From assembly GCF_003751265.1 (NCBI RefSeq), contig NZ_RJKN01000004.1, positions 124,001-188,000 on the forward strand: DNA of 64,000 bases. The letters run 5' to 3'. The translations under genes were made by a program, and so were the position numbers. The notes beneath the pieces were generated by a model. It had not been told where the DNA came from. It saw only the letters and a program-made list of their open reading frames with translations, and did not search any database. This document shows positions 30,100 through 51,102 of the stretch, piece by piece. Source of the DNA: Pseudokineococcus lusitanus. Its GTDB lineage: Bacteria; Actinomycetota; Actinomycetes; Actinomycetales; Quadrisphaeraceae. How positions within the stretch are numbered: the first letter of the stretch is position 1; every line of letters begins with the position of its first letter.

Positions 30100-32136
30100 T
30101 CAGTCGCCGACCGCCGCGGAGGCGTCGTCGGCGCCGGCGACGGGCAGCCACACCCGCATCGTCGCGGGACCCCGCTCGCCCCAGCCCTCGTACGGGCGGA
30201 GGACGACGTCGACCGGCTCGCCGAGCGGCGCGGCCTCGGTCCCCGCCCCGGGGTAGGGCCAGGCGCCCGCCGCACCGGGGTCGCCCCCGGCGGCGTCGCC
30301 GTCCTCGTCGTCGGGCAGGAGCCGCCCGCGGACGACGACGAGGCCGTCCTCCACCCGCGGGGCCGCGGAGGGGTCGAGGCGGAAGCGGTCCACGTGCGCG
30401 CCGCCCGGCAGGTCGACCGACTCGAGGCAGAGGACCTCGCTGCCGCGCTCGACGGCGACGGCGCCGCGGACGGCGTCGACGCGCGGGTCGGCGCGCACGA
30501 GCCGGGGCGCCGTCGGCAGGCGCAGCACCACCTCGTCGCCGGCGCGGAAGGCGCGGCGGACGACCGCCGTCCCGGGGTCGACGGGGCGGCCGCCGGCCGG
30601 GCCGTCCGGCTCCTCGAGCACCGCCCCGGCGGCCCAGCCGGGGACGCGGACGGACAGCGACCACGCCCGCGGGGCGTCGGCCAGCACGCGGACGCGGACG
30701 ACGCCGTCGACGCCGTCGACCTCCTCGACGTCGACGTCGACGTCGACGGGCGTGCCGTCCGGCAGCGCCGCCCGCACCTCCGCGCCGAGGTGGAGGTGCA
30801 GCTGCAGCCCGTCGTCGTCCGTCGTCGCCACGTAGCCGCCGAGGCTCGCCACGGTGCGCGCGACGTTGGTGGGGCAGCAGGAGACGCCGAACCACGGCGC
30901 CCGCAGCGAGGACGCCGCACGCCCGACGGCCACGTCCTCCGGGGGCACCGAGCCGGGCTCCCGCTGGTGCAGCGTGTTGGTGTAGAAGAACCGCCGCCCG
31001 TCGTGCGACGGCGACGCGGCCACGACGTTGTCGAGCGTGCGCTCGACGAGGTCGGCGTAGCGGGCGGCGCCCGCGCCGCCGCCGGCCAGCAGCAGCCGCC
31101 ACGCGAGCATGACGGACCCGATGCCCGCGCACGTCTCGGCGTAGGCGCGGTCCGGCGGGAGCACGAAGTCCTCGCCGAAGGCCTCGTCCTGGTGCCGCGC
31201 GCCCATGCCGCCCGTGACGTACGTGCGCCGGGCCACGGTGCGCGCCCACTGCCGCCGCACCGCGTCGAGCAGCCCGTCGTCGCCCGTCTCCACGGCGACG
31301 TCGACCGTGCCCGCGGCGAGGTAGGTGGCGCGCACCGCGTGGCCCCGCAGGACCGGGGCCTCGCGCACGGGCACGTCGTCCTGGAAGTAGGAGCGGCCGT
31401 ACTCGACGTCGGCGAGGACGTGGTGGCCGCGGCGCTCGACGAACAGGCGCGCCTGCTCGAGGTAGCGCCGCTCCCCCGTGACGCGGGAGAGCTCGACGAG
31501 CGCAGGCTCCACCTCCGCGTGCCCGCACACCGACTCCACGCCGCCCGGCCCGAAGACGTCGCACAGGTGGTCGGCCGCCCGCACCGCCACGCGGACGAGG
31601 TCGTCGTCGGTGCCCACGGTCCGGGCCCGGGCGACGGCCGCCTGGACGAGGTGGCCCAGGCAGTACAGCTCGTGGCCCCACTCCAGCGCGCTCCACCGCG
31701 GCGCCTGCCCGGGGCGGCCGAACATCGTGCCGAGGTACCCGTCCGGCTCCTGCGCCGCCGCGACGCGCGCGGTGATGGCGCGCACCCGCGCGTCGGCCCA
31801 CGCGTCGCCCGTGCGCCCGTGCTCCCACGACAGGGCCTCGAGGAGCTTGTAGACCTCCGAGTCCGAGAACTCGCGCCCCCGGCGGTCGTGCGGCAGCCGG
31901 CCCTCCACGGCGGCGTCGAAGTTGCCGAGCCAGCCCTCCCGCTCCAGCCAGTGCTCGACGTGGGCGAGGGTCGCGCGGGCGTTGACGTCCTGGCGGCGGG
32001 CCCAGCGGCCGCCGGTCACCCGCACCTCGTCGAGGCCGAGGGGGCGCAGGGCGCCGGTCGAGGGCAGGACCGGGGTGCCGGCGGACGTGCCACCGGTGGC
32101 GGGGGCGGCCGAGGGCGGGGCGGTGAGGGAGGTCAT
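30100..32136 (-). CDS. GH127 beta-L-arabinofuranosidase-like glycoside hydrolase
   Basis: 678-residue cytoplasmic (no signal peptide) DUF1680/GH127 enzyme, expected to release L-arabinose from beta-L-arabinofuranosides. It shows the (alpha/alpha)6 barrel region (PHDRRGREFSDSEVYKLLEALSWE, RTYVTGGMGARHQDEAFGEDF). The zinc-thiolate active site is present: Glu near residue 335 in YAETCAGIG with its Cys, and the Cys pair near 418-419 in FGVSCCPTNVAR, positions almost identical to those of B. longum HypBA1 (Glu338, Cys417, Cys418). A C-terminal beta-sandwich follows. The ATG at 32136 has GGAAAGG upstream. It is the last gene of the SBP-permease-permease-GH127 operon. Confidence 0.9.
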   Translation of the reverse strand: MTSLTAPPSAAPATGGTSAGTPVLPSTGALRPLGLDEVRVTGGRWARRQDVNARATLAHVEHWLEREGWLGNFDAAVEGRLPHDRRGREFSDSEVYKLLEALSWEHGRTGDAWADARVRAITARVAAAQEPDGYLGTMFGRPGQAPRWSALEWGHELYCLGHLVQAAVARARTVGTDDDLVRVAVRAADHLCDVFGPGGVESVCGHAEVEPALVELSRVTGERRYLEQARLFVERRGHHVLADVEYGRSYFQDDVPVREAPVLRGHAVRATYLAAGTVDVAVETGDDGLLDAVRRQWARTVARRTYVTGGMGARHQDEAFGEDFVLPPDRAYAETCAGIGSVMLAWRLLLAGGGAGAARYADLVERTLDNVVAASPSHDGRRFFYTNTLHQREPGSVPPEDVAVGRAASSLRAPWFGVSCCPTNVARTVASLGGYVATTDDDGLQLHLHLGAEVRAALPDGTPVDVDVDVEEVDGVDGVVRVRVLADAPRAWSLSVRVPGWAAGAVLEEPDGPAGGRPVDPGTAVVRRAFRAGDEVVLRLPTAPRLVRADPRVDAVRGAVAVERGSEVLCLESVDLPGGAHVDRFRLDPSAAPRVEDGLVVVRGRLLPDDEDGDAAGGDPGAAGAWPYPGAGTEAAPLGEPVDVVLRPYEGWGERGPATMRVWLPVAGADDASAAVGD

Positions 32137-32210: not shown

Positions 32211-33110
32211 TCAGCCCTTGAGCGCCCCGGACATGAAGCCGCGGACGTAGTGGCGCTGCAGCGCGAGGAAGAGCAGGACGCACGGCAGGGCGAGCACGGT
32301 GACGCCGGCCTGCGTGGCGCCGTAGTCGACGATCCCCATGACCTGCTGGCGCATGTTGGCCACCGCCAGCGGGAGGGGCATGAGGTTCGAGTCGGTGATG
32401 AGGACCAGCGGGGTGATGAAGTCGTTCCACGCCGCGAGGAAGGCGAAGAGGCCCACGGTGACGAGACCGGGCTTGACCGCCGGCACGAGGACCCGCCGGA
32501 GCGCGCCGAAGGTGCTGCAGCCGTCGACGAGGGCGGACTCCTCCAGCTCGGCGGGGATCGCCTCGAAGGAGATCCGCATCATGAAGGTGGCGAAGGGCAG
32601 CTGGAACATCGTCAGCACCAGCGCCAGCCCCACGAGGCTGTTCTGCAGCCCCAGCTGGGCCAGGAGCACGTACAGCGGGATGAGCAGCGTGGCGTACGGG
32701 ACCATGAGGATCGCCAGCACGAGCAGGAAGAGCAGGTCCTTGCCCGGGAACGAGAACCGCGCGAAGGCGTAGCCGCCGAGCAGCGAGACGCCGAGCGTGA
32801 GGACGACGACGAGGCCGGACACGACCGTGCTGTTGAGCAGGTACCGCCCGACGCCGGCCTGGTAGCCGACGAGCGTCTCGTAGTTGCCGAGCCCCCAGCC
32901 CTCGGACTGCGCGGTGCCGGCCTGCGGGGACACCGACGCCACGCCCGCCCAGATCAACGGGAACAGGAAGATGATGACGAGGCCGCCGGTGAGGACGTAC
33001 GTCGGCGTGCGCGACCACGGCGAGGGGCCGCCGCGGCCCCGGGAGGGGACGGCGTCGGGCCGCCGCGAGGACGGGGGCGGGGCGGGGCGTGCGGGGGCCG
33101 GTGCGCTCAC
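32211..33110 (-). CDS. Carbohydrate ABC transporter permease (MalG type)
   Basis: 299-residue inner-membrane permease of the CUT1 sugar ABC family. Six helices are visible from about residue 37 (YVLTGGLVIIFLFPLIWAG), and the ATPase-contacting EAA loop is at about 210-229 (EESALVDGCSTFGALRRVLV). The N-terminus is a Pro/Arg-rich disordered segment. The GTG at 33110 lies 2 nt from the stop of the partner permease. No ATPase gene is in the cluster, so a shared MsiK-like ATPase from elsewhere is needed, as in many actinobacterial sugar systems. Confidence 0.93.
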   Translation of the reverse strand: MSAPAPARPAPPPSSRRPDAVPSRGRGGPSPWSRTPTYVLTGGLVIIFLFPLIWAGVASVSPQAGTAQSEGWGLGNYETLVGYQAGVGRYLLNSTVVSGLVVVLTLGVSLLGGYAFARFSFPGKDLLFLLVLAILMVPYATLLIPLYVLLAQLGLQNSLVGLALVLTMFQLPFATFMMRISFEAIPAELEESALVDGCSTFGALRRVLVPAVKPGLVTVGLFAFLAAWNDFITPLVLITDSNLMPLPLAVANMRQQVMGIVDYGATQAGVTVLALPCVLLFLALQRHYVRGFMSGALKG

Positions 33111-33112
33111 GG

Positions 33113-34147
33113 TCAGACGTCCTTCCGGCGGAGGGCCTTGAACTGCAGCGCGTTGACGACGACGAGCGCCCCGAGCACGAGGATCGAGAGGGCCGCGGCG
33201 CGGCCGAGGTCGTTCGCGCCGGCGAAGGCGGTCGAGTAGACGAGCTGGACGACGGTGACCGTCGTGTTGTCCGGGCCGCCCTTGGTGAGGATGTAGAACT
33301 GGTCGAAGGCCAGCAGCGAGCCGGTCACGCAGAGGATCGTGCAGAGCGCCAACGACGGCGTCAGCAGCGGCAGCGTGATGTGCCAGAAGCTGCGGAACCG
33401 GCCGGCGCCGTCGATGGAGGCGGCCTCGTAGACGTCGCCCGAGATGCCCTGCAGGCCGACGAGCAGCAGCAGCATGTAGAAGCCGGCGAAGCGCCACACG
33501 ACGAGGGCGACGGTCGACCACAGCGCCGCCGTCGGGGTGCCGAGGAAGGACACCGGGCCGTCGGCGAGGCCGACCCGCTGCAGGAGCGGGCCGAGCGGCC
33601 CGCTCTGCGGCGAGTACAGCGCGTAGAAGAGCAGCGAGGCCGACGCCAGCCCGAGCGCGCTGGGGACGAGGACCGCGGTGCGCACCACGCTGTTCCAGCG
33701 GGTGGCCTCCTGGACGAGCAGCGCGAGCCCGAGGGCGAGCGCGATGAGGATGACGGTCGTGACGACCGTGTAGGTGACGGTGAACTGCACGGCCGGCCCG
33801 AAGAGGCGGTCGCCCACCGCCGCGGTGAAGTTGTCCGGGACGTTGATCCCGCGGCTGCCGGCGAAGAGGCTCCAGTCGGACACCGACATGCGCAGGACGA
33901 GGCCGAGCGGCACGAGGAAGAGCACGAGGACGAACAGGGCCGTGGGGGCGGCGTAGAGCCAGCCCTGCCGGCGGCGGGAGCTGCTGCTGCCCCGTCCGCG
34001 GCCCGGGCGGACCGGCCCGCCGCGCCGGCCGGCCCGGGGAGCGAGCGGGCTGCGCCGCGCGAGCGAGGCGGTGACGGGGTCGTCGCCCGCCCCGGCCGGC
34101 GCCGCGGTCGTGGCGCCCGGCGGCAGCGGGGTGCTGGGTGGGGTCAC
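33113..34147 (-). CDS. Carbohydrate ABC transporter permease (MalF type)
   Basis: 344-residue partner permease of the CUT1 sugar importer. After a 60-residue basic, Ser/Arg-rich cytoplasmic N-terminus (RGRGSSSSRRRQGWL), six helices begin at WLYAAPTALFVLVLFLVPLG. The EAA loop is clear (YEAASIDGAGRFRSFWHITLP). The GTG at 34147 follows a GAGGGGACCTCC stretch. It is downstream of the binding-protein gene, separated by 97 nt that contain a strong hairpin, so permeases are probably made at a lower level than the binding protein. Confidence 0.93.
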   Translation of the reverse strand: MTPPSTPLPPGATTAAPAGAGDDPVTASLARRSPLAPRAGRRGGPVRPGRGRGSSSSRRRQGWLYAAPTALFVLVLFLVPLGLVLRMSVSDWSLFAGSRGINVPDNFTAAVGDRLFGPAVQFTVTYTVVTTVILIALALGLALLVQEATRWNSVVRTAVLVPSALGLASASLLFYALYSPQSGPLGPLLQRVGLADGPVSFLGTPTAALWSTVALVVWRFAGFYMLLLLVGLQGISGDVYEAASIDGAGRFRSFWHITLPLLTPSLALCTILCVTGSLLAFDQFYILTKGGPDNTTVTVVQLVYSTAFAGANDLGRAAALSILVLGALVVVNALQFKALRRKDV

Positions 34148-34244: not shown

Positions 34245-35552
34245 CTACTGGGACAGCGCCTCGGTGATGGCCTCGTTGTCCTGCTCCAGCGTCCCGGCGT
34301 CGCCGTAGACCTGGTTGCGGAACAGCGTCACCCAGGGGCTGCCGGGGGCGTTGAAGGCCTGCTGGAAGTTCGGGGCGAAGGGCGTGCGGCTGTCGGCCGC
34401 GCCCGCGACCTCGTTGATGACCTGCACGCGCGGGTCCTCCTGCGCGAACTCGTTGTCCGCCAGGTCCGTCCGGGCCGGCGTGACGTCGTTGGCCGCGAGG
34501 ACCTCGACCTGCGCCTCGTCGGACATGAGCCAGGACAGGAAGTTCCAGGCCGCGTCCGGCGCCTCGGAGTCCTTGGAGATGCCGATCCCGTCACCGCCGA
34601 CGAACGTCGAGGCACCGCCGTCGACGCCGGGGATGGGCGTGACGCCGACGTCGACCGTCTCGGAGGTGCCCTGCAGGAGCGTGGCCGGGTACGGCATGAC
34701 CCCGACGCGGCCCTCCTGGAAGTCGGCCACCCACGTCGCGCCCGTCTCGTCGCGCGACGCCGGCGTGACCGCCCCCGCCTCCTGCAGCGTGCGGAAGGTG
34801 TCGTAGACCTCCGTGGCGGCGTCGCCGTCGAGGAGGCTCTCGGTGCCCGCCTCGTCCATGACCTGCTCGCCGGACGCCCACACCATGGGGAACCAGGTGA
34901 AGACGCCGCACCCTCCGCAGTTGCCGCCGAAGGCGGTGCCGTACACGCCCTCTTGGTCGAGGGCCTGGACGGCGAGGGCCTGCTCCTCGTACTCCGCGAG
35001 CGTGGTCGGGCCCTGCTCGGGGTCGAGGCCGGCCTGGCGGTAGAGGTCCTTGTTCCAGAACATCACCGACAGGTCGAGGACGAAGGGCAGCACGTACTGC
35101 TGGTCCTCGTAGGTGCCGGCGTCGAGGTGCCCCTGGTTGATGCTGCCCGCCTCGGGCAGCTCGGCGATCTTGTCCGTGATGTCGGCGAAGAGGCCCGCCT
35201 CGGTCCAGTTGGGCACGTAGACGATGTCGGCGGCGAAGAGGTCGGGCAGGTCGCCGCTGCCGGCCGCGGCGCCGACCCGGGTGACGTAGTCGTCGTTGGG
35301 CGTGATGGTCAGCTCGACCTGGTTCTCGTGGCTCTCGTTGTAGGCGTCCACGAGCAGCTGCGCCTGCGCCTCGAGGGGCGCCCGCGTCCACAGCGTCAGC
35401 GTCGTGCCGTCGTCGACGCCCTCGGGGCCCGCGTCGCTGCTGACGGTCGGCGCGGTGCCGCCGCTGCCGCACGCCGTGAGGCCGGCCAGCGCGCCGGTCG
35501 CCAGGAGGGCGACGAGGCGCCGCGCGCGGCGCGTCCTGGGGGTGGTGGTCAT
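34245..35552 (-). CDS. Sugar ABC transporter substrate-binding lipoprotein
   Basis: 435-residue extracellular solute-binding protein (family 1, CUT1). The lipoprotein signal has basic MTTTPRTRRARRL, hydrophobic VALLATGALAGL and lipobox LTAC with the acylated Cys28. The mature part begins with a Ser/Gly linker, then TLTLWTRAPLEAQAQLLVDAYNE. An unusual CysGlyGlyCys (FGGNCGGCGVF, near residue 210) could form a loop disulfide. The ATG at 35552 follows GGGAGAGACC. The ligand is probably an arabino-oligosaccharide, inferred from the GH127 and modular glycosidase in the same locus. It is read from a LacI-controlled promoter at 35666-35695. Confidence 0.93.
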   Translation of the reverse strand: MTTTPRTRRARRLVALLATGALAGLTACGSGGTAPTVSSDAGPEGVDDGTTLTLWTRAPLEAQAQLLVDAYNESHENQVELTITPNDDYVTRVGAAAGSGDLPDLFAADIVYVPNWTEAGLFADITDKIAELPEAGSINQGHLDAGTYEDQQYVLPFVLDLSVMFWNKDLYRQAGLDPEQGPTTLAEYEEQALAVQALDQEGVYGTAFGGNCGGCGVFTWFPMVWASGEQVMDEAGTESLLDGDAATEVYDTFRTLQEAGAVTPASRDETGATWVADFQEGRVGVMPYPATLLQGTSETVDVGVTPIPGVDGGASTFVGGDGIGISKDSEAPDAAWNFLSWLMSDEAQVEVLAANDVTPARTDLADNEFAQEDPRVQVINEVAGAADSRTPFAPNFQQAFNAPGSPWVTLFRNQVYGDAGTLEQDNEAITEALSQ

Positions 35553-36916: not shown

Positions 36917-39900
36917 CTACCGCTGGGGGCGGAGGTCGGCGTCCACGCCGTGACCGACCTGGCGCTGGTCGCCGTTGACGTCGGCGTAGGCCGCGACGAC
37001 CGTGGCCGACCGGCGGCCGGTGGACAGGACCAGCGCCCCGTCCACGACCTCGACGGCCAGCTCCGTGCCGGCCGCCGTCGTCAGCACCAGCCCGTCGGAC
37101 GCCGCGGCGCCCAGCCGCGCGGCCGTCAGCCGCTCGTCCGGGACGACGTGGCCGAGCAGCAGCCGCTCCACGCGCCCGGCGCCCCAGACCCGCAGGAGGC
37201 GCTGCGCGAGCACCGCCTCCGAGCGCGGGACCCGGCCGCCGAGGACGTCGTCGTACACCGCGCCCATGGCGGCGTCGTCGGGCAGGAAGGCCGTCAGCGC
37301 GGCCTCCGGGTCGTCGAGCACCGCGACCGGGGAGCCGGGACGGCGCTCGAGGACGCCCTCGACGAGCGCCACGACGACGTCGTGGTCGGACCCGTCGGCG
37401 TCCGGCGCACCGCTCGCCGTCCGCAGGGCGGCCAGCACCGACACGTCCGTCCCGGGCTCCGGCTCGGGCTCGGGGTCGGGGTCCGGGTCGGGGTCCGGCT
37501 CCTCGCCGGGGGCGAGGACCTGCACCCGGGCCACGGCGGTCGTCGTGCCGGCCGCCTCGACGGCACCGCGCACCTCGAAGGTGCCCGGCGCCGCGTACGC
37601 GGCCGGGTCGACGGCGTCCCACGCGACGTCGAGCATCTCCCGCGAGCCGTCGTTGTACTGGACGGCCACCCTGCCGGGCAGCGACGGCGCCGTGCCGGCG
37701 ACCGTCGTCACCGCGACCGGGTCGACGGTGTTGACCTGGCCCGGCGGCGTCGCCCGGACCCAGACCGTCGCGGTGGCCGGCAGGGCCGTGCCGTCGACCG
37801 CGCCGACGACGTCGAAGCTGCCCTCGCCGGACACCTGGTCGGCCGTCACCGCGCTCCAGACCACGGCGGAGCGCAGCCGCGTGCCGTCGGCGTAGACGAC
37901 GTCGACCTCGGCCGGCAGCTCGGGCAGCTCGCCGACGGCCGTGCGGACGTCGAGCTCCTCGACCGCCGTCGGGGCGTCGGCGCGCACGCGCCACTCGGAG
38001 ACGGCGACGGCCGAGTACCCGCCGGCCGTCCCGGGTGCCGCGTCGAGGACGACGCGCAGCGCCGACGTCGTGACGACGTCGAAGCCGGCGCTGCCCGTCT
38101 CGGCGCCGCGGCCGGACGCGACGTCCACCCACGCGCCGTCGACCTGCGCCTGCACCGTCCACGCCGCCGGGACCGCGACGCCGTCCCCGGTGCCCTGCGG
38201 GCTGTCCGACCAGAAGACGAGCTCGGAGCTCGCCACCCGGACCGGGCGCTCCCACGTGTACTGCAGCCACTGCTGCGCGGGCCGGTCGCCCGACCACGTG
38301 CCCCAGACCAGCTGCTGGTCACCGCCGCTCGTCGGGGCCTGGCCGTCGTTGACGGCCTGCACCCGGTTCCAGCCCGCGGTGTACGACGCGGTCGGCGTCG
38401 CCTGGCGCGAGACCTCGAGGCCCGCGACGTCGGTCTCCGCGACCTCGACGACGACGTCCTCCGCGGACGTCAGCGCCCCGTCGGTGGCCTCGAGCCGGAG
38501 CACGTAGCGCCCGGCCGCCGTGACGCGGGCCGTGGTGCTCGGGCTCGCCGGGTCGCGGAAGATCACCGTCGCGCCGGCCGGCGCCTCGACGGCCGACCAC
38601 GTGGAGGTGAGCCCGGCGCCGGGCAGCCCGTCGTCGCGCACCTCGCCGCGCAGCGGCACGGTGCCGCCCGCGGACGGCCCGTCTACCCGGGCCCGCACCA
38701 CCGGGGACGCGTTCTGCGACACCGGGACCGGCTCACCGGTGGAGCGGACCGCCAGCTCCTTGACGCCGGTGGCGGAGCCGGGGTGGTGGTCGACGACGAG
38801 ACGGAGCGCCGTCGTCGTCACGGGCGCGAACCGCAGGACGTTGAGGTTGGCCCGCGGGGCCGACGGCGTCGCCGAGGGCTGCGGCACCGGCTGCCAGCCG
38901 CCGCCGGTGCGGTACTCGAGCCGGTAGGACTCCGGCGCCGCGTAGCCGGGCCGGGTCCCCGCCGTCCGGCCGCCCTGCGGGGCGTCCGAGGTGGAGGTCC
39001 GGTAGAAGTGCACGCGCGCCTCGTCGACGGTCTGCTCCCCGTCCAGCTCGACGGTCAGCGCGTCGGACCCGGACGACGTGCCCGCGGTCCCCCAGAAGGG
39101 CTCGTTGACGGTGCTGCCGTCGACCGCCGCGGCGGCGGAGCTCCACGCGTCGGACGCGGTGTGCGTGGCCTCCGCCGGCCGCCCCTCGGTGACCGGGGCG
39201 ACGTCCGTGGTGGCGGTCCGGACGTCGGCGCCGGCCTTGGCCATGACGTCGACGACACGGTCGTCGTCGGCGAAGCGCACGTCCTGCGGGGCGAGCAGGT
39301 CGGCCGTCGTCGCGGAGGTCACCGCGAGACCGTCGGCGGCCTCCACCTCGCCCGTCGCCGGGTCCCAGACCGCCTGCCCGAGACCGTCGAGCGTGAAGCC
39401 GAGCTCGCCGTCGAGGTAGACGGAGTAGCCCTCGGGCACGTCCTCGCCGTAGGGGCGCTCGCCGTCGCCGGGCGCGTCCCAGACGACGGCGAGCTCGCCG
39501 CCGCGGTAGGGGATGCCGTCGACGCGGAAGTGCGGCCAGTCGACGTCGACCGGGTCGACCTCGACCTTCGCGTCGCTGCGCGGCCGGAACCCCATGGCGT
39601 CCTCGATGACGGTGAAGTTCGTCGCGCCGAGGATCGTGTGGTGGATCCACGAGCGGTAGCCGATGCCCTGCTCGTCGCCCCACGAGGTGTTGGCCGAGCC
39701 CTGCGCCCAGAACTCGTTCTGGTCGGGCAGCCGGTTGTCGCCGCCGATGTAGTGCGCCCAGGCGTTCCAGTAGAGGAGCTTCTTGTAGTCCTCGGCGCCG
39801 AGGTACTCGGTCGGGTAGTCCCGCAGGACGCTCGAGAGCATCCGGAAGGTCACCGTCGAGTTGATGACGGAGAAGTTGTTGCTGCCCTCGTCCCCCCGCT

Positions 39901-41764
39901 CGAGGGCGTCTCGCTGGTTGGCCGTGTAGAAGGGGAAGATCGGGTACTCCTCCGAGTCCTCCCACAGCCGCAGCGCCTCGGTGTAGTCGTCGTCGTAGTC
40001 CGCGTCCCCCGGCTTCGGCATCAGCCCGACCGAGAACGGGTAGTAGTTGTTGATCTCCTTCCACTCCACCAGCCGCTCGGGGCCGACGGACTGGCGGTGC
40101 TTGAGCATGTCGTCGTCGGCGTCCCACAGCGTGTCGACGACCGCCCGCTTGACCCGCTCGGCGACGGCGCGCATGCGCTCGGCGTCCTCGGTGCGGCCCG
40201 CGACCTCGTAGCCCTCCGCCGCCGCCAGGGCGTTGGAGTAGAGGTAGGCGTTCTCCGTGCGGTCCATCCGCGCACCGCCGTTGCGCGCGCCCCAGTCGAA
40301 CGACACCGCATCGGCGTCGTTGCCGGTCATGGCGCCCCAGTCGTACTCGATGAGGCCGTTGTCGTTGGTGTCGTAGTCCTCGAGCAGCCCCGCGACGTCG
40401 TCGTCGCCGTAGCGGGCGAGGTTCTCGGCGACGACCGCCGGACCGCCGTGGAGCTGGTAGGAGCGCCAGGCCGCCTCGGTGACGTACTGCGTGTAGCTGT
40501 TGCTCCAGTTCGCCGGGTCGCCCGGGTTGTCGACGAGGCGGTGGCTGCGCGCCACCTCGCCCGCCGAGACCCAGGGGCCGTAGGAGTAGACCGGGTCCTT
40601 GAAGTACTTGAGGTCGTCGATGAACATGCCGGTGGTCAGCACGATGTTGTTGTTGTAGCCGAGCACCCCCTCCATCGACGTGGGGAACTGGTAGTCGTTG
40701 CCGGGGACGTCGGCGTCGAGGAAGTTGAAGCGCATCAACCACCACCGGTAGAACAACGTCTTGTCGATGTTGTCCTCGGGCGTGTCGAGGTAGGGGACCT
40801 GGTCGGCCCACCACGCGTTGTAGTCGGTCACGTGCCGCGTGTACGCGGCCGGGCCGTCCTCCGCCCGGACGGCGTCGTAGTCGGTGCGGGACGCGGCGAT
40901 CTCGTCGGTCACGAGGCCCAGCTGGACCTTCGCGGCGGCGCTGCCCGTCGCCGGGACCGCCACCTCGCGCGTCACCGCGCCGTCGGACGCCGCGAAGCCG
41001 TCGCCCGACAGGCGGGGCCGCAGCTCGGTGAGGTCCCGCGGCGCGGACAGCGCCCCCACGACCTCGTCGCCCTCGACGACGCCCGCCAGCGGCGAGGCAC
41101 CGCGCACCGTCACCGTCCGCGCCGTGCCGTCGGTGCTCGACATCTCCAGCAGGACGACGGCGACGTTCGCGTCGGTCATGAACTTCGTCTGGACGACGCG
41201 GACGCCGCCCCCGACGTGCGTGCTCGTCCAGTAGCTCGGCGTCTGCTTGCGCGCCGCCGTCTCCTCGGTCAGCGCCACGGCCCGGCCGTCGACGAGCACC
41301 TCCACGCGCAGGAGGGCGTCGCCGCCCAGGTCGTCGACGTAGGCCGGACGCCCGACGAAGCCGAGGTCGCCCGGGGAGTGGGTGTACATGTACGCGGCCC
41401 GGCCGCGGGTGAAGAGCCAGCTGTTGCTGTCGCCGAAGGCGCCCGCCGTCCCGGTCCGCGCGAGCAGGTCGTCGACCCAGAAGTCCGCGTCGGGCGAGGT
41501 GCCGGCGCCCGCGGCGCGGTCGGCCTCGAAGGTGGCGCGCATCTGGCCGCCGACGACGGGGCCGGCGGGCAGGGGCGGGACGGGCTCGGCGTCACCGGTG
41601 AAGACCGGGTAGCCGATGCCGCTGTTGGGCCTCGCCGGGGCGGCCGCGCCCGAGGCGGTGGCCGGGACGGCGGCCAGCAGCGTGCCCGCGAGGGTGGCGG
41701 CCAGGGCGCCCGCGACGGCGACGGACCGCCGTCGGCCGGAGGGGCGTGGAGGGGTGCCGGACAT
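36917..41764 (-). CDS. Secreted 1615-residue modular glycoside hydrolase (possible GH121-like beta-L-arabinobiosidase)
   Basis: Large exported enzyme. In order: signal peptide (about 1-38, ending TASGAAA); N-terminal beta domain and (alpha/alpha)6-type catalytic region (about 50-760, with FWVDDLL, LFYRWWLMRFNFL, PTSMEGVLGYNN, TEAAWRSYQLHGG, DTNDNGLIEYDWG, IGGDNRLPDQNEFWAQG); discoidin-like module (about 865-1005); PKD-like domain (about 1020-1105); second discoidin-like module (about 1120-1260); two Big_4 Ig-like domains (about 1265-1418); a Pro-Asp/Pro-Glu linker (1420-1438); and a C-terminal fasciclin-like domain (AFLPDDAAM, LLLGHVVPDERLTA). No LPXTG motif or membrane anchor is seen. The ATG at 41764 has GAGGAG 5 nt upstream. 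GH121 is suggested by the locus layout; GH63-like is the alternative. Catalytic residues were not assigned. Confidence 0.8.
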   Translation of the reverse strand: MSGTPPRPSGRRRSVAVAGALAATLAGTLLAAVPATASGAAAPARPNSGIGYPVFTGDAEPVPPLPAGPVVGGQMRATFEADRAAGAGTSPDADFWVDDLLARTGTAGAFGDSNSWLFTRGRAAYMYTHSPGDLGFVGRPAYVDDLGGDALLRVEVLVDGRAVALTEETAARKQTPSYWTSTHVGGGVRVVQTKFMTDANVAVVLLEMSSTDGTARTVTVRGASPLAGVVEGDEVVGALSAPRDLTELRPRLSGDGFAASDGAVTREVAVPATGSAAAKVQLGLVTDEIAASRTDYDAVRAEDGPAAYTRHVTDYNAWWADQVPYLDTPEDNIDKTLFYRWWLMRFNFLDADVPGNDYQFPTSMEGVLGYNNNIVLTTGMFIDDLKYFKDPVYSYGPWVSAGEVARSHRLVDNPGDPANWSNSYTQYVTEAAWRSYQLHGGPAVVAENLARYGDDDVAGLLEDYDTNDNGLIEYDWGAMTGNDADAVSFDWGARNGGARMDRTENAYLYSNALAAAEGYEVAGRTEDAERMRAVAERVKRAVVDTLWDADDDMLKHRQSVGPERLVEWKEINNYYPFSVGLMPKPGDADYDDDYTEALRLWEDSEEYPIFPFYTANQRDALERGDEGSNNFSVINSTVTFRMLSSVLRDYPTEYLGAEDYKKLLYWNAWAHYIGGDNRLPDQNEFWAQGSANTSWGDEQGIGYRSWIHHTILGATNFTVIEDAMGFRPRSDAKVEVDPVDVDWPHFRVDGIPYRGGELAVVWDAPGDGERPYGEDVPEGYSVYLDGELGFTLDGLGQAVWDPATGEVEAADGLAVTSATTADLLAPQDVRFADDDRVVDVMAKAGADVRTATTDVAPVTEGRPAEATHTASDAWSSAAAAVDGSTVNEPFWGTAGTSSGSDALTVELDGEQTVDEARVHFYRTSTSDAPQGGRTAGTRPGYAAPESYRLEYRTGGGWQPVPQPSATPSAPRANLNVLRFAPVTTTALRLVVDHHPGSATGVKELAVRSTGEPVPVSQNASPVVRARVDGPSAGGTVPLRGEVRDDGLPGAGLTSTWSAVEAPAGATVIFRDPASPSTTARVTAAGRYVLRLEATDGALTSAEDVVVEVAETDVAGLEVSRQATPTASYTAGWNRVQAVNDGQAPTSGGDQQLVWGTWSGDRPAQQWLQYTWERPVRVASSELVFWSDSPQGTGDGVAVPAAWTVQAQVDGAWVDVASGRGAETGSAGFDVVTTSALRVVLDAAPGTAGGYSAVAVSEWRVRADAPTAVEELDVRTAVGELPELPAEVDVVYADGTRLRSAVVWSAVTADQVSGEGSFDVVGAVDGTALPATATVWVRATPPGQVNTVDPVAVTTVAGTAPSLPGRVAVQYNDGSREMLDVAWDAVDPAAYAAPGTFEVRGAVEAAGTTTAVARVQVLAPGEEPDPDPDPDPEPEPEPGTDVSVLAALRTASGAPDADGSDHDVVVALVEGVLERRPGSPVAVLDDPEAALTAFLPDDAAMGAVYDDVLGGRVPRSEAVLAQRLLRVWGAGRVERLLLGHVVPDERLTAARLGAAASDGLVLTTAAGTELAVEVVDGALVLSTGRRSATVVAAYADVNGDQRQVGHGVDADLRPQR

Positions 41765-42412: not shown

Positions 42413-43506
42413 GCCGACCGCCGGTCGTGCTCGACGAGCCGCAGCGCCCGCTCGAGGAGCCCTTCGACGGCGGCCTGGACGACCTCGGGGTGCTCGAGCG
42501 GGACGAGGTGGCCGGCGTCCGGGACGACGACGAGCTCGGCCGCGGGCAGGCGCCGGACGATCTCCTCGCTGTGCGAGGGCGGCGTGAGGAGGTCGTCGGC
42601 CCCCACGAGCACCAGCACCTCGCCGCCCGCGAGCGCGCCGAGGGCGTCGGCCTTGTCGTGGGCGGCGAAGGCCGGGAAGAAGTCGTCGATGACCTCGACC
42701 CGCGTGCCGGCGATCATGCGCGAGGTGAAGTCGACGACGTCCTCGGGCACGTCCGAGGCGTAGGACCAGTGCCGCACGAGCAGCGCCTCGAGGTCGCCGC
42801 CGAGGGCGCGGGTCCGCTCGACGAGGGCCGCCTGCCGGCTCAGCAGGCCGAGCGCGGTCGGCGCCACCCTCCGCAGCAGCGGCGCCAGGGCGGCGAAGCC
42901 GAAGTCGTTGGCCTCCATCCCCCCCGAGCTCGTCGACACGAGCGCGGTGCCGACGACGCGCTCGGCGACGAGGTCGGGGTCGCGCGCCGCGAGCGCCATG
43001 ACCGCCATGCCGCCCATCGAGTGGCCGAGCAGGACCAGCGGCCCCTCGGGCGCCGTGGCCGCGACGACGGCGGCGAGGTCCTCCCCCACCTGGTCGATCG
43101 TCGCCGACCCCTGCGGGCCGCGCTGGGACCGCCCGTGCCCGCGCTGGTCCCACAGGACGAGGCGGTAGCGGCCGCGCAGGGCGAGGCGCTGGACGTGCCA
43201 GAAGTCGAGGTTGAGGCCGTAGCCGTGGGACAGGACGACGGTGGGCCGGTGCTCGGCGGCGGCCCGGGCGGCCTCGTCGGCGGGCAGGTCGTCCACCTCG
43301 ACGTACAGCGCCGTGCCGTCGCCCGTCCGGACCGTCGTCGACGGCCCGGTCAGCGAGCCGAGCGGGACCTCGCGCCGGGGCCCCCGCGGCCGGCCCGGCA
43401 GGAGCGGGCGGCCGACGGCGACCCGCTCGGCGCCCAGGCCGATGGCGGCGCCCACCCCCGCGGCCGCCAGGCCCAGCCCGAGGGGGACCAGCCGCAGGGC
43501 GCTCAC
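42409..43506 (-). CDS. Alpha/beta hydrolase
   Basis: 365-residue alpha/beta-hydrolase with an N-terminal hydrophobic segment (LVPLGLGLAAAGVGAAIGLG) that could be a signal anchor. Fold motifs: oxyanion HGYGLNLDFWH, nucleophile elbow GHSMGG, acid Asp in LVGADDLLTP and catalytic His in DAGHLVPLEHP. The GTG at 43506 overlaps the alr stop and its stop overlaps tsaE, so it belongs to the alr-tsaE operon. A hydrolase in this position is common in actinobacteria, but its substrate is not known to me. Confidence 0.88.
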   Translation of the reverse strand: MSALRLVPLGLGLAAAGVGAAIGLGAERVAVGRPLLPGRPRGPRREVPLGSLTGPSTTVRTGDGTALYVEVDDLPADEAARAAAEHRPTVVLSHGYGLNLDFWHVQRLALRGRYRLVLWDQRGHGRSQRGPQGSATIDQVGEDLAAVVAATAPEGPLVLLGHSMGGMAVMALAARDPDLVAERVVGTALVSTSSGGMEANDFGFAALAPLLRRVAPTALGLLSRQAALVERTRALGGDLEALLVRHWSYASDVPEDVVDFTSRMIAGTRVEVIDDFFPAFAAHDKADALGALAGGEVLVLVGADDLLTPPSHSEEIVRRLPAAELVVVPDAGHLVPLEHPEVVQAAVEGLLERALRLVEHDRRSA

Positions 43507-44768
43507 GGGAGCACCTGCGCCGCAGCGGACCCGGCGACGTCGAGGCCGTGCCGACGGGCGACCGCGCCCGAGTAGCGGCGCGGGACGCGCGCGCCGAGGC
43601 GGGTGACGACCTCGTACCCGATGGTCCCGGCGGCGTCGGCCCAGTCCTGGGCCGTCGGCCCGCCGTCCGCGCCCGTGCCGAAGAGCTCGACGACGTCGCC
43701 GGCCCGGACGGCGCGGGCCGCCGCGTCGTCGCCGAGGTCGAGGACCACCTGGTCCATGCAGACGCGGCCGGCGACCGGGTGCCGGCGGCCGCCGACGAGC
43801 ACGGGCCCCGTCCCGCTCGCGTGCCGGGGGACGCCGTCGCCGTAGCCCAGCGGCACGAGCGCGAGCCGCGTCCGCGCCGCGGTGACGTGCTGGTGGCCGT
43901 AGGAGACGCCCTCCCCGGGCCCCACCTCCTTGACGAGCGACAGCCGCGCCCGCAGCGCCATGGCGGGCACGAGGCCGAGGTCGGCCGCCGAGCCCCGGAC
44001 GGGCGAGGGCGTGACCCCGTAGACGGCGATCCCCGCGCGCACGAGGTCGAGCCGGGTCCGCGGGTGGGCCAGCACGCCCGCGGAGTTGGCGAGGTGCCGC
44101 AGCGGGGGCCGCACCCCCAGGCCGGCGGCGACGGCGAGGGCCTCCTCGAGCCGGTCGGCCTGCCGGTGCGTGAGGGCGTCCGCGGCCGGGTCGTCGGCCG
44201 AGGCGAGGTGGGACCAGACGCCGACCACCTCGACGGCGCCCTCGGCCTGCGCGGCCGCGGCCGCGCGTACGAGGTCGGGCCAGTCGTGCGCCGTCGCCCC
44301 GCCGCGGGACAGGCCCGTGTCGACCTTGAGGTGCACCCGGGCCGTCCGCCCGGTCCGGCGGGCGGCGCCGGCGAGCGCGTCCACCGCCCAGGGCGCCGAG
44401 GCGGAGACGTCCACCCCGGCCGCCACCGCCGCGGTCGTGTCCTGGCCCGGGACGAGCACCCACGCGAGGACGGGCGCCGTGATGCCGGCGGCCCGCAGCG
44501 CGAGCGCCTCGTCGAGGTGGGCCACGCCGAGCCACGTGGCCCCACCCTCGAGCGCGGCGAGCGCGGCGGGGACGGCGCCGTGCCCGTACCCCTCGGCCTT
44601 GACGACGGCCATGAGCGCGGCGCCCCCGGCGCGCTCGCGCAGGAGCGCGGCGTTGGCCGCCACCGCGTCGAGGTCGACGTCGGCCCACGCGGGGACGACG
44701 GGGGCCGTCGGGCCCCCGGTCGCGGGGGGCGTCGACGGGGGCGTCGGGGTCGTCGTCCGGTCGGGCAT
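43503..44768 (-). CDS. alr: Alanine racemase
   Basis: 421-residue PLP-dependent alanine racemase providing D-alanine for peptidoglycan. The PLP lysine is Lys57 in AVVKAEGYGHG; the second catalytic base is the Tyr in GEGVSYGHQH. A C-terminal beta domain has VAGRVCMDQVVLDLG. A 27-residue Thr/Pro-rich N-terminal tail precedes the barrel. The ATG at 44768 has no Shine-Dalgarno; GAGACT ends 7 nt upstream and may be a -10. The gap to nnr upstream is 96 nt, so alr probably has its own promoter. Confidence 0.96.
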   Translation of the reverse strand: MPDRTTTPTPPSTPPATGGPTAPVVPAWADVDLDAVAANAALLRERAGGAALMAVVKAEGYGHGAVPAALAALEGGATWLGVAHLDEALALRAAGITAPVLAWVLVPGQDTTAAVAAGVDVSASAPWAVDALAGAARRTGRTARVHLKVDTGLSRGGATAHDWPDLVRAAAAAQAEGAVEVVGVWSHLASADDPAADALTHRQADRLEEALAVAAGLGVRPPLRHLANSAGVLAHPRTRLDLVRAGIAVYGVTPSPVRGSAADLGLVPAMALRARLSLVKEVGPGEGVSYGHQHVTAARTRLALVPLGYGDGVPRHASGTGPVLVGGRRHPVAGRVCMDQVVLDLGDDAAARAVRAGDVVELFGTGADGGPTAQDWADAAGTIGYEVVTRLGARVPRRYSGAVARRHGLDVAGSAAAQVLP

Positions 44769-44775
44769 CGGCGGC

Positions 44776-44781
44776 AGTCTC
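44776..44781 (-). promoter_or_regulatory. Possible -10 for leaderless alr
   Basis: GAGACT on the minus strand ends 7 nt before the ATG. It departs from TANNNT at the first base, so support is weak. Confidence 0.3.
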
Positions 44782-44864
44782 CCACCGGGCGGCGCCGCGG
44801 GCCGTGCGGCTCGGCGCGCGGCGGCGCGCCGCACCTCGCCGGCCGGCCGCGGCGGCCGGGACGG

Positions 44865-46406
44865 TCAGCCGGTGGGCACGTCCTCGAGGAGGGCGGTGAG
44901 CACCTCCGGCAGGGCCGCGACGACGGCCTCGGCGTGCAGGGGTCCGCCCGCCGACGCCGCGGAGCCGGCGAGCCCGTGGACGGCGGTCCCGAGCGCCCCG
45001 GCGTCCGCGAGGTCGAGGCCCGCAGCCGCGAGGACGCCGACGACGCCGGCGAGGACGTCGCCGCTCCCGGCCGTCGCGAGCCACGGCGTGCCGTCGGCCT
45101 GCGAGCGCACGGGCACGGCCCCCGCGCCGGCCCGCCCCGGCGGGACGACGAGCGTCGTGCCGCCCTTGAGGAGGACGACGGCGCCCGTCGCGTCGGCGGC
45201 GCGCCGCGCGTGCTCGAGCGGGCGCGCCTCGACGTCGTCCCGCCCGCAGGGGGTCCCCAGCTGCCCGAGCAGGCGGGCCAGCTCCCCGGCGTGCGGCAGC
45301 AGGAGCGTCGGGCCGTCCCCGCGGGCGCCGTCGGCCAGCGCCGTCACGAGGGCCGGCAGGGCGCCGGCGTCGACGACGCACGGCACGTCCTCGGCGAGGG
45401 CGGCCCGCACGTGGTCGCCCTGCTCCTCGTCGTCCGGGTCCACCCCCGGCCCGAGGACCCACGCCTGCACGCGCCCCGGGCCGGGGACGACCTCGGGCCA
45501 GCGCGCCCGGACGAGGTCGGTGGGCCGCGCGGGCCCGAGGTAGCGCACCATCCCCGCCCCGGCGCGGGTCGCCGCGCCCGTCGCGAGGACGGCGGCCCCC
45601 GTGTACGTCGCGCCCCCGGCCACGACACCCACGACGCCGCGCGAGTACTTGTCCGAGGTGCCCGTCGGCCGGGGCCACCGCGCGGCGACGTCGGCGGCGC
45701 CGAGACGCTCGACGGCCGGGGCGCCGAGGTCGTCGGGCCGCAGCCCGATGCCGGCGACGACGACCCGGCCGGCGAGCGCCGAGGCCGGCGGCAGCAGCAG
45801 CGTCGGCTTGGCGGTGCCGAGGGCGACCGTCACGTCCGCCCGCACGCACGGCGCGCTCCCGGCGTCGACCGGGCCCGCGGGCACGGCCCCGGTGCCGACG
45901 TCCGTCCCGCTGGGGACGTCGACGGCGACGACCCGTGCGCCCCCGGCCGCCACCGCGCCGGCGAGGACGGCGGCGGTCCCGCGCAGGCCCGGGCGGCCGC
46001 CCGTGCCGAGCAGCCCGTCGACGACGACGTCCGCGGCCCCCACGGCGGCCCGGCCCGCGGCGCCCGCGGCCGCGTCCTCCGCCAGGACCCGCCCGCCCGC
46101 CCGGCGCAGGGCGGCGAGACCGGGCGCGTGGGCGGACGGCGTCGCGAGCAGCGCCGTCACGGCCGCCCCGCGGGCGGCCAGCAGCGCGCCCGCGTGCAGC
46201 GCGTCGCCGCCGTTGGTGCCGCCCCCGACGAGGAGGACGACGGCACCGCCGTAGACGCGCCCCGCCACGTCCCGCAGCTCCTGCCCGACGACCCGCGCGA
46301 GGGCCGCGGACGCGCGGGCGACGAGGGTGGCGAGGCCGTCGGGCAGCCCGGCCGCGACGGCCTCCTCGGCGGTGCGGACGACGTCGGCGGCGTGGGCGCG
46401 GATCAC
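44865..46406 (-). CDS. nnr: Bifunctional NAD(P)HX epimerase/dehydratase
   Basis: 513-residue repair enzyme that rescues hydrated NAD(P)H. The N-terminal epimerase (YjeF_N, about residues 1-215) shows VGGGTNGGDALHAGALLA and VAVDVPSGTD. The C-terminal ADP-dependent dehydratase (about 240-505) shows KYSRGVVGVVAGGATYTGAA, LPHAGELARLLG and the phosphate loop TAGSGDVLAGVVG. The GTG at 46406 has GGAGG 4 nt upstream and overlaps the acpS stop. Fusion of the two domains is usual in bacteria. It is part of the glmS-acpS-nnr run. Confidence 0.94.
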   Translation of the reverse strand: MIRAHAADVVRTAEEAVAAGLPDGLATLVARASAALARVVGQELRDVAGRVYGGAVVLLVGGGTNGGDALHAGALLAARGAAVTALLATPSAHAPGLAALRRAGGRVLAEDAAAGAAGRAAVGAADVVVDGLLGTGGRPGLRGTAAVLAGAVAAGGARVVAVDVPSGTDVGTGAVPAGPVDAGSAPCVRADVTVALGTAKPTLLLPPASALAGRVVVAGIGLRPDDLGAPAVERLGAADVAARWPRPTGTSDKYSRGVVGVVAGGATYTGAAVLATGAATRAGAGMVRYLGPARPTDLVRARWPEVVPGPGRVQAWVLGPGVDPDDEEQGDHVRAALAEDVPCVVDAGALPALVTALADGARGDGPTLLLPHAGELARLLGQLGTPCGRDDVEARPLEHARRAADATGAVVLLKGGTTLVVPPGRAGAGAVPVRSQADGTPWLATAGSGDVLAGVVGVLAAAGLDLADAGALGTAVHGLAGSAASAGGPLHAEAVVAALPEVLTALLEDVPTG

Positions 46407-46882
46407 GGGACCTCCGGGGCGGGCGACGGGGGCGACGGGGGCGGCACGAGCGGCGCGGCCGGCAGGGGCTGCGCGCGCTCGACGACGACGAAGGCGGTGG
46501 CCACCCCGCCGTCGTGGGACAGGGACAGGTGCACGGCGCCGGCGCCGAGCCGGGCGGCGAGGTCGGCCACGGTGCCGCGGAGCTCGAGCGAGGGGGCGCC
46601 GTGCTCGCCGCGGCGCACCCGGGCGTCCCGCCAGCGCAGGCCGGGCGGGGCGCCGAGGGCCTTGGCCACCGCCTCCTTCGCGGCGAAGCGCGCCGCCAGC
46701 GAGCGCGGCGCCAGGTCGGCCTCGTCGTCGTCGAAGAGCCGGCGGCGCAGGGCGCCGCCGCGGGCGTCGTCGCGCGCGAGCACGGCCGTGAAGCGGTCGA
46801 CGTCGACGACGTCGACGCCCACCCCGACGAGCAGCCCGCCCCCGACCGCACCGCCCGCGCCGTCCGCCCCCGCGGGGGTCAC
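46403..46882 (-). CDS. acpS: Holo-[acyl-carrier-protein] synthase
   Basis: 159-residue 4'-phosphopantetheinyl transferase that activates acyl carrier protein using CoA. The two metal-binding motifs are clear: GVGVDVVDVDRF near residues 18-29 and RFAAKEAVAKALG near 63-75. Extensions at both ends (Gly/Ala-rich N-terminus; Pro-rich C-terminus PLVPPPSPPSPAPEVP) make it longer than the usual 120 residues. The GTG at 46882 overlaps the glmS stop and its own stop overlaps nnr. Confidence 0.94.
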   Translation of the reverse strand: MTPAGADGAGGAVGGGLLVGVGVDVVDVDRFTAVLARDDARGGALRRRLFDDDEADLAPRSLAARFAAKEAVAKALGAPPGLRWRDARVRRGEHGAPSLELRGTVADLAARLGAGAVHLSLSHDGGVATAFVVVERAQPLPAAPLVPPPSPPSPAPEVP

Positions 46883-48768
46883 TCGACGGTGACCGACTTC
46901 GCGAGGTTGCGCGGCTGGTCGACGTCGAGGCCCTTGGCGGCGGCCAGCTCGGCGGCGAAGACCTGGAGCGGGACGACGGTGAGCAGCGGCATGAGCAGCG
47001 GCGGGCACGCGGGGACGGAGATGACCTCCTCGGCGAAGGGCGCCACGCCCTCGTCCCCCTCCTCGGCGATGACGAGGGTGCGGGCGCCGCGCGCCCGGAT
47101 CTCCTGGATGTTGGAGACCACCTTGCCGTGCAGGCCGTGCGGGCTCGAGGGCGGCGGCACGACGACGAAGACGGGCTGCCCGGCCTCGATCAGCGCGATC
47201 GGCCCGTGCTTGAGCTCGCCCGCCGCGAAGCCCTCGGCGTGGATGTAGGCGAGCTCCTTGAGCTTGAGCGCCCCCTCCAGCGCCACGGGGTAGCCGACGT
47301 GCCGGCCGAGGAAGAGGACCGAGCGCGAGTCCGCCATGAAGCGCGCGATCTCCCGCACGCGGTCGAGGCCGTCGAGGACGGTCTGGACCTTCTCCGGCAT
47401 GGCGTGGAGCTCGGTGAGCACCTCCTTGACGAGCTCGGCGCTCGCCGTGCCGCGGAGGCGGCCGAGGTAGAGGCCGAGGAGGTAGCACGCGGTGATCTGC
47501 GCGAGGAAGGCCTTCGTCGAGGCGACGGCGATCTCCGGCCCGGCGTGCGTGTAGAGGACGGCGTCGGACTCCCGGGGGATCGTCGCCCCGTTGGTGTTGC
47601 AGATCGAGAGGGTGCGGGCGCCGAGCTCGCGCGCGTGCCGCACGGCCATGAGCGTGTCCATCGTCTCGCCCGACTGGGAGATCGAGACGACGAGCGTCCG
47701 CTCGTCGACGACGGGGTCGCGGTACCGGAACTCGTGGGCGTACTCGACCTCGACGGGGATCCGGCACCAGTGCTCGACGGCGTACTTGGCCACCTGCCCG
47801 GCGTAGCTCGACGTCCCGCACGAGATGACGACGACCTTGTCGACGGCGGCGAGCTCCTCCGTGGGGATGCGCACCTCGTCGAGGACCAGGCGGCCCTGCT
47901 CGTCGCTGCGGCCGAGCAGCGTGTCGGCGACGGCGCGGGGCTGCTCGTCGATCTCCTTCGCCATGAAGGACGGGTAGCCGCCCTTCTCGGCGGCGGCGAC
48001 GTCCCAGTCGACGTGGAAGGGCGACCCCTCGACGGGCTCGCCGTCGAAGGTCGTGATGGCGGCCCCGTCGGCCGTGATGGTCACGACCTCGTCCTGCCCG
48101 AGCGCGAGCGCCGAGCGGGTGCGGGAGATGAAGGCCGCGACGTCCGAGCCGAGGAAGGTCTCGCCGTCGCCGAGCCCGACGACGAGGGGGGAGCTGCGGC
48201 GGGCGCCGACGACGGTGCCGGGCTCGTGCGCGCGGACGGCGAGGAGCGTGAAGGCCCCCTCGAGGCGGCGGCAGGTCCGCCGCACGGCCTCCGTCAGCGC
48301 CTCGGCCCCGGTCTGCCCGCCCTCGCGGACCCGGCCCAGCTCGCGGGCGAGGACGTGCGCGGCGATCTCGGTGTCGGTCTCCGACACGGGCGTCACGCCC
48401 GCGGCGGCGAGCTCGGCGCGCAGCGCGGCGAAGTTCTCGATGATGCCGTTGTGGATGACGGCCACCTCGTCCTCGCCCTCGCCGGCGAGGTGCGGGTGGG
48501 CGTTGACGTCGGTCGGGCCGCCGTGGGTCGCCCAGCGGGTGTGCCCGATGCCGGTGGCCGACGGCGGCAGCGGCGACGCCTCGAGGAGGTCGCGGAGGTT
48601 GACGAGCTTGCCGGCCTTCTTGCGGACCTCGAGGCCCCCGTCGGGCCCCACGAGCGCCACGCCGGCCGAGTCGTAGCCGCGGTACTCCAGCCGCGCCAGG
48701 CCGTCGACGACGACCTCCAGCGCCGCACCCGTGCCCGGCGTCCCGACGTAGCCCACGATCCCGCACAT
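46879..48768 (-). CDS. glmS: Glutamine--fructose-6-phosphate aminotransferase (isomerising)
   Basis: 629-residue glucosamine-6-phosphate synthase, first step to UDP-GlcNAc. The N-terminus [12 protein letters not shown] exposes the nucleophilic Cys after Met removal; the glutaminase domain spans about 1-240, and two SIS sugar-isomerase domains follow ([42 protein letters not shown]). The C-terminus is [13 protein letters not shown] as in the family. The ATG at 48768 has TACCCT ending 7 nt upstream, hence leaderless, and no glmS ribozyme. glmM, the next enzyme of the pathway, is 2.4 kb away on the same strand. Confidence 0.98.
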
Positions 48769-48775
48769 GCGGCTC

Positions 48776-48781
48776 AGGGTA
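48776..48781 (-). promoter_or_regulatory. -10 hexamer for leaderless glmS
   Basis: TACCCT on the minus strand ends 7 nt before the glmS ATG. Confidence 0.6.
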
Positions 48782-48890
48782 GGTGCGCCGCCGGTGCCGC
48801 CCGTGCCGCGACGTGCCGCGGGACGCCCGTCGGCACCGGCCGGCCGGGGCCCCCGGCCGGTCGCGTGCCGTCCACCCCCGCGTCACCTGG

Positions 48891-48896
48891 CAGCAT
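48891..48896 (+). promoter_or_regulatory. -10 hexamer for leaderless coaA
   Basis: CAGCAT ends 8 nt before the GTG at 48905, the same CANNNT variant and context (GGCAGCATC) as at 25722. Confidence 0.45.
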
Positions 48897-48904
48897 CGGC
48901 GCCC

Positions 48905-49852: not shown

Positions 49853-49860
49853 CGTCCCGC

Positions 49861-49980
49861 GGCAGCAGGGCGCCGGAGCGCCACCCGCGACACCGCCGGG
49901 GCACATGGGCGCCGCAGCGCCACCCACGGGGCTCCTCGGGGGGACGACGGCGCCGACGTGCCTCGCCGCAGCGGCAGCAG
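49861..49980. repeat. Intergenic repeat, about 40-bp unit, family A (second locus)
   Basis: Three diverged units (cores at about 49868, 49907 and 49948; spacings 39 and 41) with GGCAGCAGGGCGCC followed by G(T/C)GCC. It resembles the array at 16460-16612, notably GGCGCCGACGTGCC in the last unit. It fills the gap between convergent coaA and the GNAT gene. Confidence 0.65.
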
Positions 49981-49983
49981 GGG

Positions 49984-51090: not shown

Positions 51091-51096
51091 GCGCCG

Positions 51097-51102
51097 ACCC
51101 TG
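51097..51102 (-). promoter_or_regulatory. Possible -10 for leaderless GNAT gene
   Basis: CAGGGT on the minus strand ends 6 nt before the GTG; the same hexamer and spacing occur before the DUF5709 gene. Confidence 0.4.

Follow-up and report, generated by a model that had tools for sequence, protein, structure and literature searches.

A GH121-type enzyme with a C-terminal FAS1 domain in Pseudokineococcus lusitanus: a putative exchangeable attachment module

The window analysed here, a stretch of 64,000 nucleotides from one contig of P. lusitanus, carries a gene for a large HypBA2-like GH121 enzyme that ends in a FAS1 tail. Downstream of it, on the same strand, lie genes for an ABC transporter solute-binding protein, a pair of ABC permeases and a GH127 enzyme with its C-terminal domain. 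The features are as follows.

36917..41764, minus strand: entire gene for the 1615-aa HypBA2-like GH121 enzyme, with the FAS1 tail at its C-terminus (open reading frame, PDB and NCBIfam matches)
41651..41764, minus strand: putative signal peptide, approximately residues 1-38 with a guessed end (signal-peptide-like hydrophobic stretch at about 15-33)
39221..41647, minus strand: GH121 catalytic region, residues 40-848 (6m5a_A, E 4.9e-209; catalytic motifs)
38798..39127, minus strand: first discoidin domain (F5/8 type C_2), residues 880-989 (Pfam, E 3.1e-8)
38444..38671, minus strand: PKD-like domain, about residues 1032-1107 (Pfam, below cut-off)
37955..38437, minus strand: second discoidin-like domain, about residues 1110-1270, weak (E 0.043; homologous stretches in related-locus proteins)
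37547..37969, minus strand: two Big_4 domains, about residues 1266-1406 (Pfam, two stretches; 8q2h_A match to 1266-1406)
37451..37504, minus strand: Pro-Asp/Pro-Glu linker, about residues 1421-1438 (sequence)
36920..37447, minus strand: FAS1 tail, residues 1440-1615 (homology to FAS1 relatives)
34245..35552, minus strand: ABC solute-binding protein (SBP_bac_1), start approximate (profile match)
33113..34147, minus strand: ABC permease (profile match)
32211..33112, minus strand: second ABC permease, open frame extending to 33521 (profile match, list of open reading frames)
30100..32124, minus strand: GH127 beta-L-arabinofuranosidase, start approximate (E 1.6e-77)

The enzyme gene is a single unbroken frame from ATG to stop, as the 1615-residue frame of the earlier note had implied without a strand being given. 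GC3 was 0.98-1.0 across the six blocks measured, tail included (0.983 for residues 1440-1615), and this uniformity indicates that the FAS1 tail is coding. In the whole protein, Pfam detected MGH1-like_GH at 409-584 (E 1.8e-10), F5_F8_type_C_2 at 880-989 (E 3.1e-8) and Big_4 in two stretches (E 3.6e-27). Of the accessory modules named in the earlier note, the two Big_4 domains, the first discoidin and the acidic proline linker were recovered. The second discoidin is only a hint at E 0.043, with no PDB match up to E 0.1, and the PKD domain gave a weak Pfam match below the cut-off (K319L-like_PKD, E 0.01). Past residue 100, hydropathy averaged over 19 residues peaked at 1.16, from which a transmembrane helix appears to be absent there, and the sole LP.T[GAS] string, LPATA at 1328, lies within a Big_4 domain. 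Inspection of the 1615-aa protein by Pfam, hydropathy and motifs revealed no SLH domain, transmembrane helix or C-terminal sorting signal of LPXTG type, in keeping with the earlier statement that a cell-wall anchor is lacking.

As for the enzyme family, the protein had been described simply as a glycosidase. A PDB search supported this and narrowed it to the GH121 type, as residues 40-848 aligned to residues 2-863 of HypBA2 (6m5a, E 4.9e-209), the GH121 beta-L-arabinobiosidase BLLJ_0212 of Bifidobacterium longum. The NCBIfam model NF041578 (beta-L-arabinobiosidase HypBA2) matched residues 9-1442 with 1121.9 bits. This is less than the 3200 bits required for an equivalog, and the protein is consequently assigned as GH121-type and not as a HypBA2 equivalog. 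Catalytic motifs taken from passages of PMC7263609 were searched in the window protein, where E365, D483 and E684 (in SMEGVLGYN, GNDADAVSF and QNEFW) correspond to HypBA2 Glu383, Asp515 and Glu713. According to these passages, mutation of Glu383 or Glu713 abolished HypBA2 activity and mutation of Asp515 nearly did so. Both proteins thus have in common the catalytic region, the three essential acidic residues, and discoidin and Big_4 modules. They differ at the C-terminus: the 1943-aa HypBA2 ends in FIVAR and transmembrane segments (same passages of PMC7263609), whereas the window protein ends in the linker and FAS1, without a transmembrane helix. Judged from its sequence, the enzyme is predicted to be a secreted GH121-type (HypBA2-like) beta-L-arabinobiosidase that cuts arabinose off plant cell-wall proteins.

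The two loci also share their neighbouring solute-binding protein, two permeases and GH127. In B. longum, a set comprising these genes together with GH121 and GH43 degrades and imports beta-arabinooligosaccharides of hydroxyproline-rich glycoproteins, as described in passages of PMC7263609, and the window holds most of the set described there. The neighbouring frames scanned, which were a part of the frames of the window, showed no GH43 (HypAA). The GH121 identity and the beta-arabinooligosaccharide operon context are additions to what had been noted for this DNA before. The secreted GH121 enzyme would act on plant extensin-type glycoproteins and free beta-arabinobiose from their hydroxyproline-linked arabinosides. 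The disaccharide would then be taken up by the ABC importer encoded nearby and split by the neighbouring GH127, with the discoidin and Big_4 modules of the GH121 enzyme probably aiding substrate binding and spacing.

By Pfam, the arabinose genes lie between two housekeeping blocks (window 23412-28360 and 43503-52595). One side holds Cpn60 and TsaD, and the other alanine racemase, NAD(P)H-hydrate dehydratase, a SIS/GATase protein (probably GlmS), a PRK-family kinase and a PGM/PMM protein (probably GlmM). A GH121 match was absent from all 12 other genomes of the family and present in two of 22 chosen genomes. The arabinose genes may represent an insertion into a stable neighbourhood.

We then considered the identity of the tail. 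In the whole protein, Pfam Fasciclin (PF02469) matched residues 1483-1592 with 16.3 bits, against a cut-off of 22. Taken separately as 179 aa, the tail scored 22.1 bits (E 1.9e-4), just over the cut-off, and as 183 aa 21.6 bits, just under it, while five fused homologues gave 25.4-45.8 bits, all above. PF02469 was matched by every row of an alignment of 28 relatives, stand-alone FAS1 proteins from other genomes of the order included (E up to 1, best 3.5e-13), and 20 columns were invariant across these rows. Searched against the PDB, the family profile found AstaP-pink1 as its best match (two entries, 2.9e-8), as well as two LRC6 chains and 1w7d (beta-ig-h3/fasciclin, 2.4e-5). When the profile was built from nothing but the six fused tails, it reached FAS1 structures at just E 0.033 and 0.047; hhalign of fused tails with an ordinary FAS1 domain of the window genome gave a probability of 70 and E 4.1e-5. 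The model of the tail built from its single sequence had pLDDT 43.1 and pTM 0.28. We accept the tail as a FAS1 domain by homology, and the FAS1 call of the earlier note is thereby upheld at the level of sequence. The low whole-protein Pfam score and the poor structure model would be expected if the resemblance had arisen by chance or the fusion were an assembly or frame artefact, but we regard this as extremely improbable. Against it stand a homologue in the same genome (L004), five more fused rows, 24 aligned stand-alone relatives and the uniform GC3, and an artefact was rejected on the GC3 and the homologous tails.

FAS1 has been described mainly in matrix and adhesion proteins, and classical FAS1 proteins (Mpb70/Mpb83, Nex18, beta-ig-h3) are not known to be fused to glycosidases. 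Classical FAS1 proteins and the tail are both recognised as Fasciclin by profile, 1w7d being among the structures matched; Mpb70/Mpb83 and Nex18 are treated in parts of PMC6032426. In a full-text literature search (titles and abstract openings, mostly open papers), FAS1-tailed bacterial glycosidases were not found among the matches listed. What is seen here is a known domain, FAS1, in a new portable position.

Tails of this type were found on several other secreted enzymes. The window genome (G000) encodes a second FAS1-tailed protein, L004, which is GH39-like and 1491 aa long; its PDB matches were 8uwt_A ('family 5/39') and 5u22_A ('N2152', which we take to be GH39), and Rfam gave no match on L004. 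The tails of the two G000 proteins are 41% identical over 175 aa. Genome G045 has the tail on a GH43-CBM6 protein of 894 aa and on a 1440-aa LamG/Big_4 GH39-like protein, which in its catalytic stretch shows 75% identity to the G000 GH39-like protein. Genome G060 has it on a GH121 protein (L074:8082-15887, 2601 aa with the start as in the list of open reading frames) and on an ExeM/NucH nuclease (989 aa, 492.1 bits against a cut-off of 300). This extracellular nuclease (L075:623-3592) has an LTD-like domain besides its C-terminal FAS1 tail. Finally, G876 carries a FAS1-tailed GH39-like protein, 69% identical to that of G000, in two identical contig copies. The contigs concerned (L121 and L122) have 8279 and 1039 bases in common at 100% identity, and these include the FAS1-tailed gene; the cause would be either assembly duplication or a true repeat.

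The GH121-FAS1 protein of G060 is 62% identical to the window protein over residues 3-1435 and likewise ends in FAS1. However, the stretch 1395-1580, which is mostly tail, is just 41% identical, and the G060 protein alone has extra Big_13/OmpL47-type and discoidin-like stretches ahead of the tail. In a tree of 31 rows, the seven fused tails (the window tail, L004, L043, L044, L073, L075 and G876) were split by one branch (100/100) from 24 stand-alone ones, the latter being those in alignment A2, a subset of all found. On the fused side, the window tail grouped with the nuclease tail and not with the other GH121 tail, though weakly (87/47) and on a long branch. This would fit a tail that moves independently of its enzyme. 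Because related tails follow unrelated secreted enzymes in a few actinobacteria, the domain has the look of an attachment module that can be swapped. This recurrence, a nuclease included, goes beyond the earlier note.

The chief rival explanation is that the tail targets the enzyme to its substrate by binding glycoproteins or glycans of the plant wall; fasciclin-like arabinogalactan proteins, which bear FAS1 themselves, would be possible targets. Arabinose-rich glycans of plants can be substrates of GH39 enzymes, and both fused tails of the window genome are on glycosidases (GH121 and GH39-like), as such targeting would have it. FAS1-bearing arabinogalactan proteins do exist in plants (parts of PMC8424115), and bacterial FAS1 proteins have been linked to plant and other hosts (parts of PMC6032426). 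Pairing of FAS1 with FAS1 is, however, speculation, and the G060 nuclease, which should have no plant-glycan substrate, bears the same type of tail, so that a purely plant target is disfavoured. We consider substrate targeting unlikely, if still a serious contender.

What occupies the C-terminus in other GH121 enzymes was seen in 33 relatives from named genomes, collected by a scan with six peptide patterns and hence close relatives only. The FAS1 tail was absent in all 33. From a reading of their ends by eye, fourteen had a tail of some 90 aa ending in Cys (10 aligned, four recognised by eye), eight stopped just past Big_4 and five ended in an Ig-like SYQW-type domain. One (L006) had an SLH end, with an LPQTG string near the end and no transmembrane segment, and another (L007) a sortase-like motif followed by a transmembrane segment; there was one FG-GAP end (L030), one discoidin end (L034) and two other ends (L027, L032). 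A similar difference exists within the window genome, where a second GH39-like protein has a Cys-ended tail and not FAS1. Identity between the two paralogues is 60% in the query domain of 430 aa and 53% when 1204 residues are aligned. Since the ends differ among relatives and between these paralogues, the enzyme C-terminus appears to be an exchangeable slot, sometimes occupied by known anchors. It is not always used for anchors, as seen from the eight relatives that stop after Big_4 and the 14 with a Cys-ended tail.

The Cys-ended tail occurs on large secreted enzymes, and two cysteines were invariant in 11 aligned rows (alignment A4: L136:7226-7525 and the ends of L008, L010, L011, L012, L019, L023, L024, L033, L035 and L036). 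None of three such tails tested had a Pfam match at E 0.01. Among nine genomes searched, matches to it numbered nine in G045, seven in G060 and two in G000, with none in the other six. In G045, a gene with the Cys-ended tail (L072:1854-5081) lies directly upstream of the FAS1-tailed GH43-CBM6 gene (5164-7848), so products of one locus are possibly sent to different places. In four genomes searched, SLH was matched in G045 only, and sortase in all four, with four sortase matches in G000.

Two observations would suit a stabilising or folding module, or a binder of small ligands, with no role in attachment: many relatives of the enzyme manage without the tail, and AstaP-pink1, which the family profile matches best in the PDB, is a FAS1 protein that binds astaxanthin. 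The position of the tail behind unrelated extracellular enzymes fits localisation or binding better, and we hold such a module to be quite improbable.

In the distribution surveys, whose genome sets overlap, a tail match was counted at E 0.001. The window genome was the only one with a match among four genomes of its genus and among 13 of its family, which rules out a genus- or family-wide trait. Matches were found in at least 39 of 396 genomes of the order, at least 55 of 394 of the class and at least 41 of 186 of family f17; these are lower bounds, as only the best candidates were scored (at most eight per genome for order and class, where larger groups were sampled, and 18 for f17). In family f18, two of three genomes matched. 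Across the surveys, at least four genomes (G000, G045, G060, G876) had the match in an open frame longer than 750 aa. By this count, and with the tail in none of the 33 GH121 relatives and a FIVAR and transmembrane end described for HypBA2 in passages of PMC7263609, the arrangement can still be called uncommon in the sets searched, as first supposed. Among the matching frames of 450-750 aa, six (L053, L065, L066, L069, L123, L124) were judged by eye to be probably over-extended frames ahead of stand-alone FAS1.

Secreted proteins of about 220 aa in which FAS1 stands alone (L045-L071, e.g. L045:1498-2139) occur in many actinobacterial genomes, and one tandem double-FAS1 form was seen, in G690 (L125:1756-2982). 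The stand-alone proteins belong to the same FAS1 subfamily as the window tail, but consist of a signal-peptide-like start and FAS1 only (by eye) and fall on the opposite side of the 100/100 bipartition. Two scans of viral contigs found no tail relatives. In plasmids, both the tail and the full-length enzyme were absent (for the enzyme, seven records had any match, none covering 80%).

Taken together, we consider it fairly probable that the locus encodes a system of GH121 enzyme, importer and GH127 in which the FAS1 tail serves as a portable attachment module. On its acidic proline linker, the tail would keep the enzyme near the cell, at the surface or in extracellular matrix, and would take the position that SLH, sortase-type or transmembrane anchors hold in some relatives; beta-arabinobiose freed close to the producer could then be caught by the adjacent importer. 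Of this account, the sequences show the enzyme family, the conserved catalytic residues, the gene neighbours, the FAS1 homology and the return of the tail on unrelated enzymes, and we infer the activity and substrate, the uptake, and the retention by the tail through a binding partner. An exchangeable attachment module is the most likely role of the tail. Against the account as a whole stand the GH43 (HypAA) not seen among the neighbouring frames scanned, the NF041578 score below cut-off, the pLDDT of 43 for the single-sequence model and the E-values of 0.033 and 0.047 with which the six-fused-tail profile reaches FAS1 structures. Against attachment in particular, one FAS1 domain that has no link to the membrane could not anchor by itself and would need a partner. 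Parts of a FAS1 review (PMC6032426) caution that, in bacteria, fungi and plants, the label 'cell adhesion' may be misleading, which weakens an adhesive reading, and report FAS1 proteins as prominent in leaf and absent from root bacterial metaproteomes. An adhesive function of the tail is plausible.

A broader version may tentatively be put forward, with rather low confidence. In some actinobacteria, this FAS1 subfamily could serve secreted hydrolases (GH121, GH39-like, GH43 and extracellular nuclease) as a general localisation tag at the C-terminus, recognised by a partner on the producer's own surface or matrix and exchangeable with the Cys-ended tail, an apparently unnamed second tag that would send sister enzymes elsewhere. 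The pair of GH39-like paralogues in the window genome, with similar modules and FAS1 versus Cys-ended tails, makes the question testable by domain swap. If FAS1 is a swappable attachment module, a domain of matrix and adhesion proteins would have been co-opted to position plant-degrading enzymes, and also a nuclease, at a particular site. It would also offer a single-domain handle on where actinobacteria keep their secreted enzymes, with possible use in enzyme display or immobilisation.
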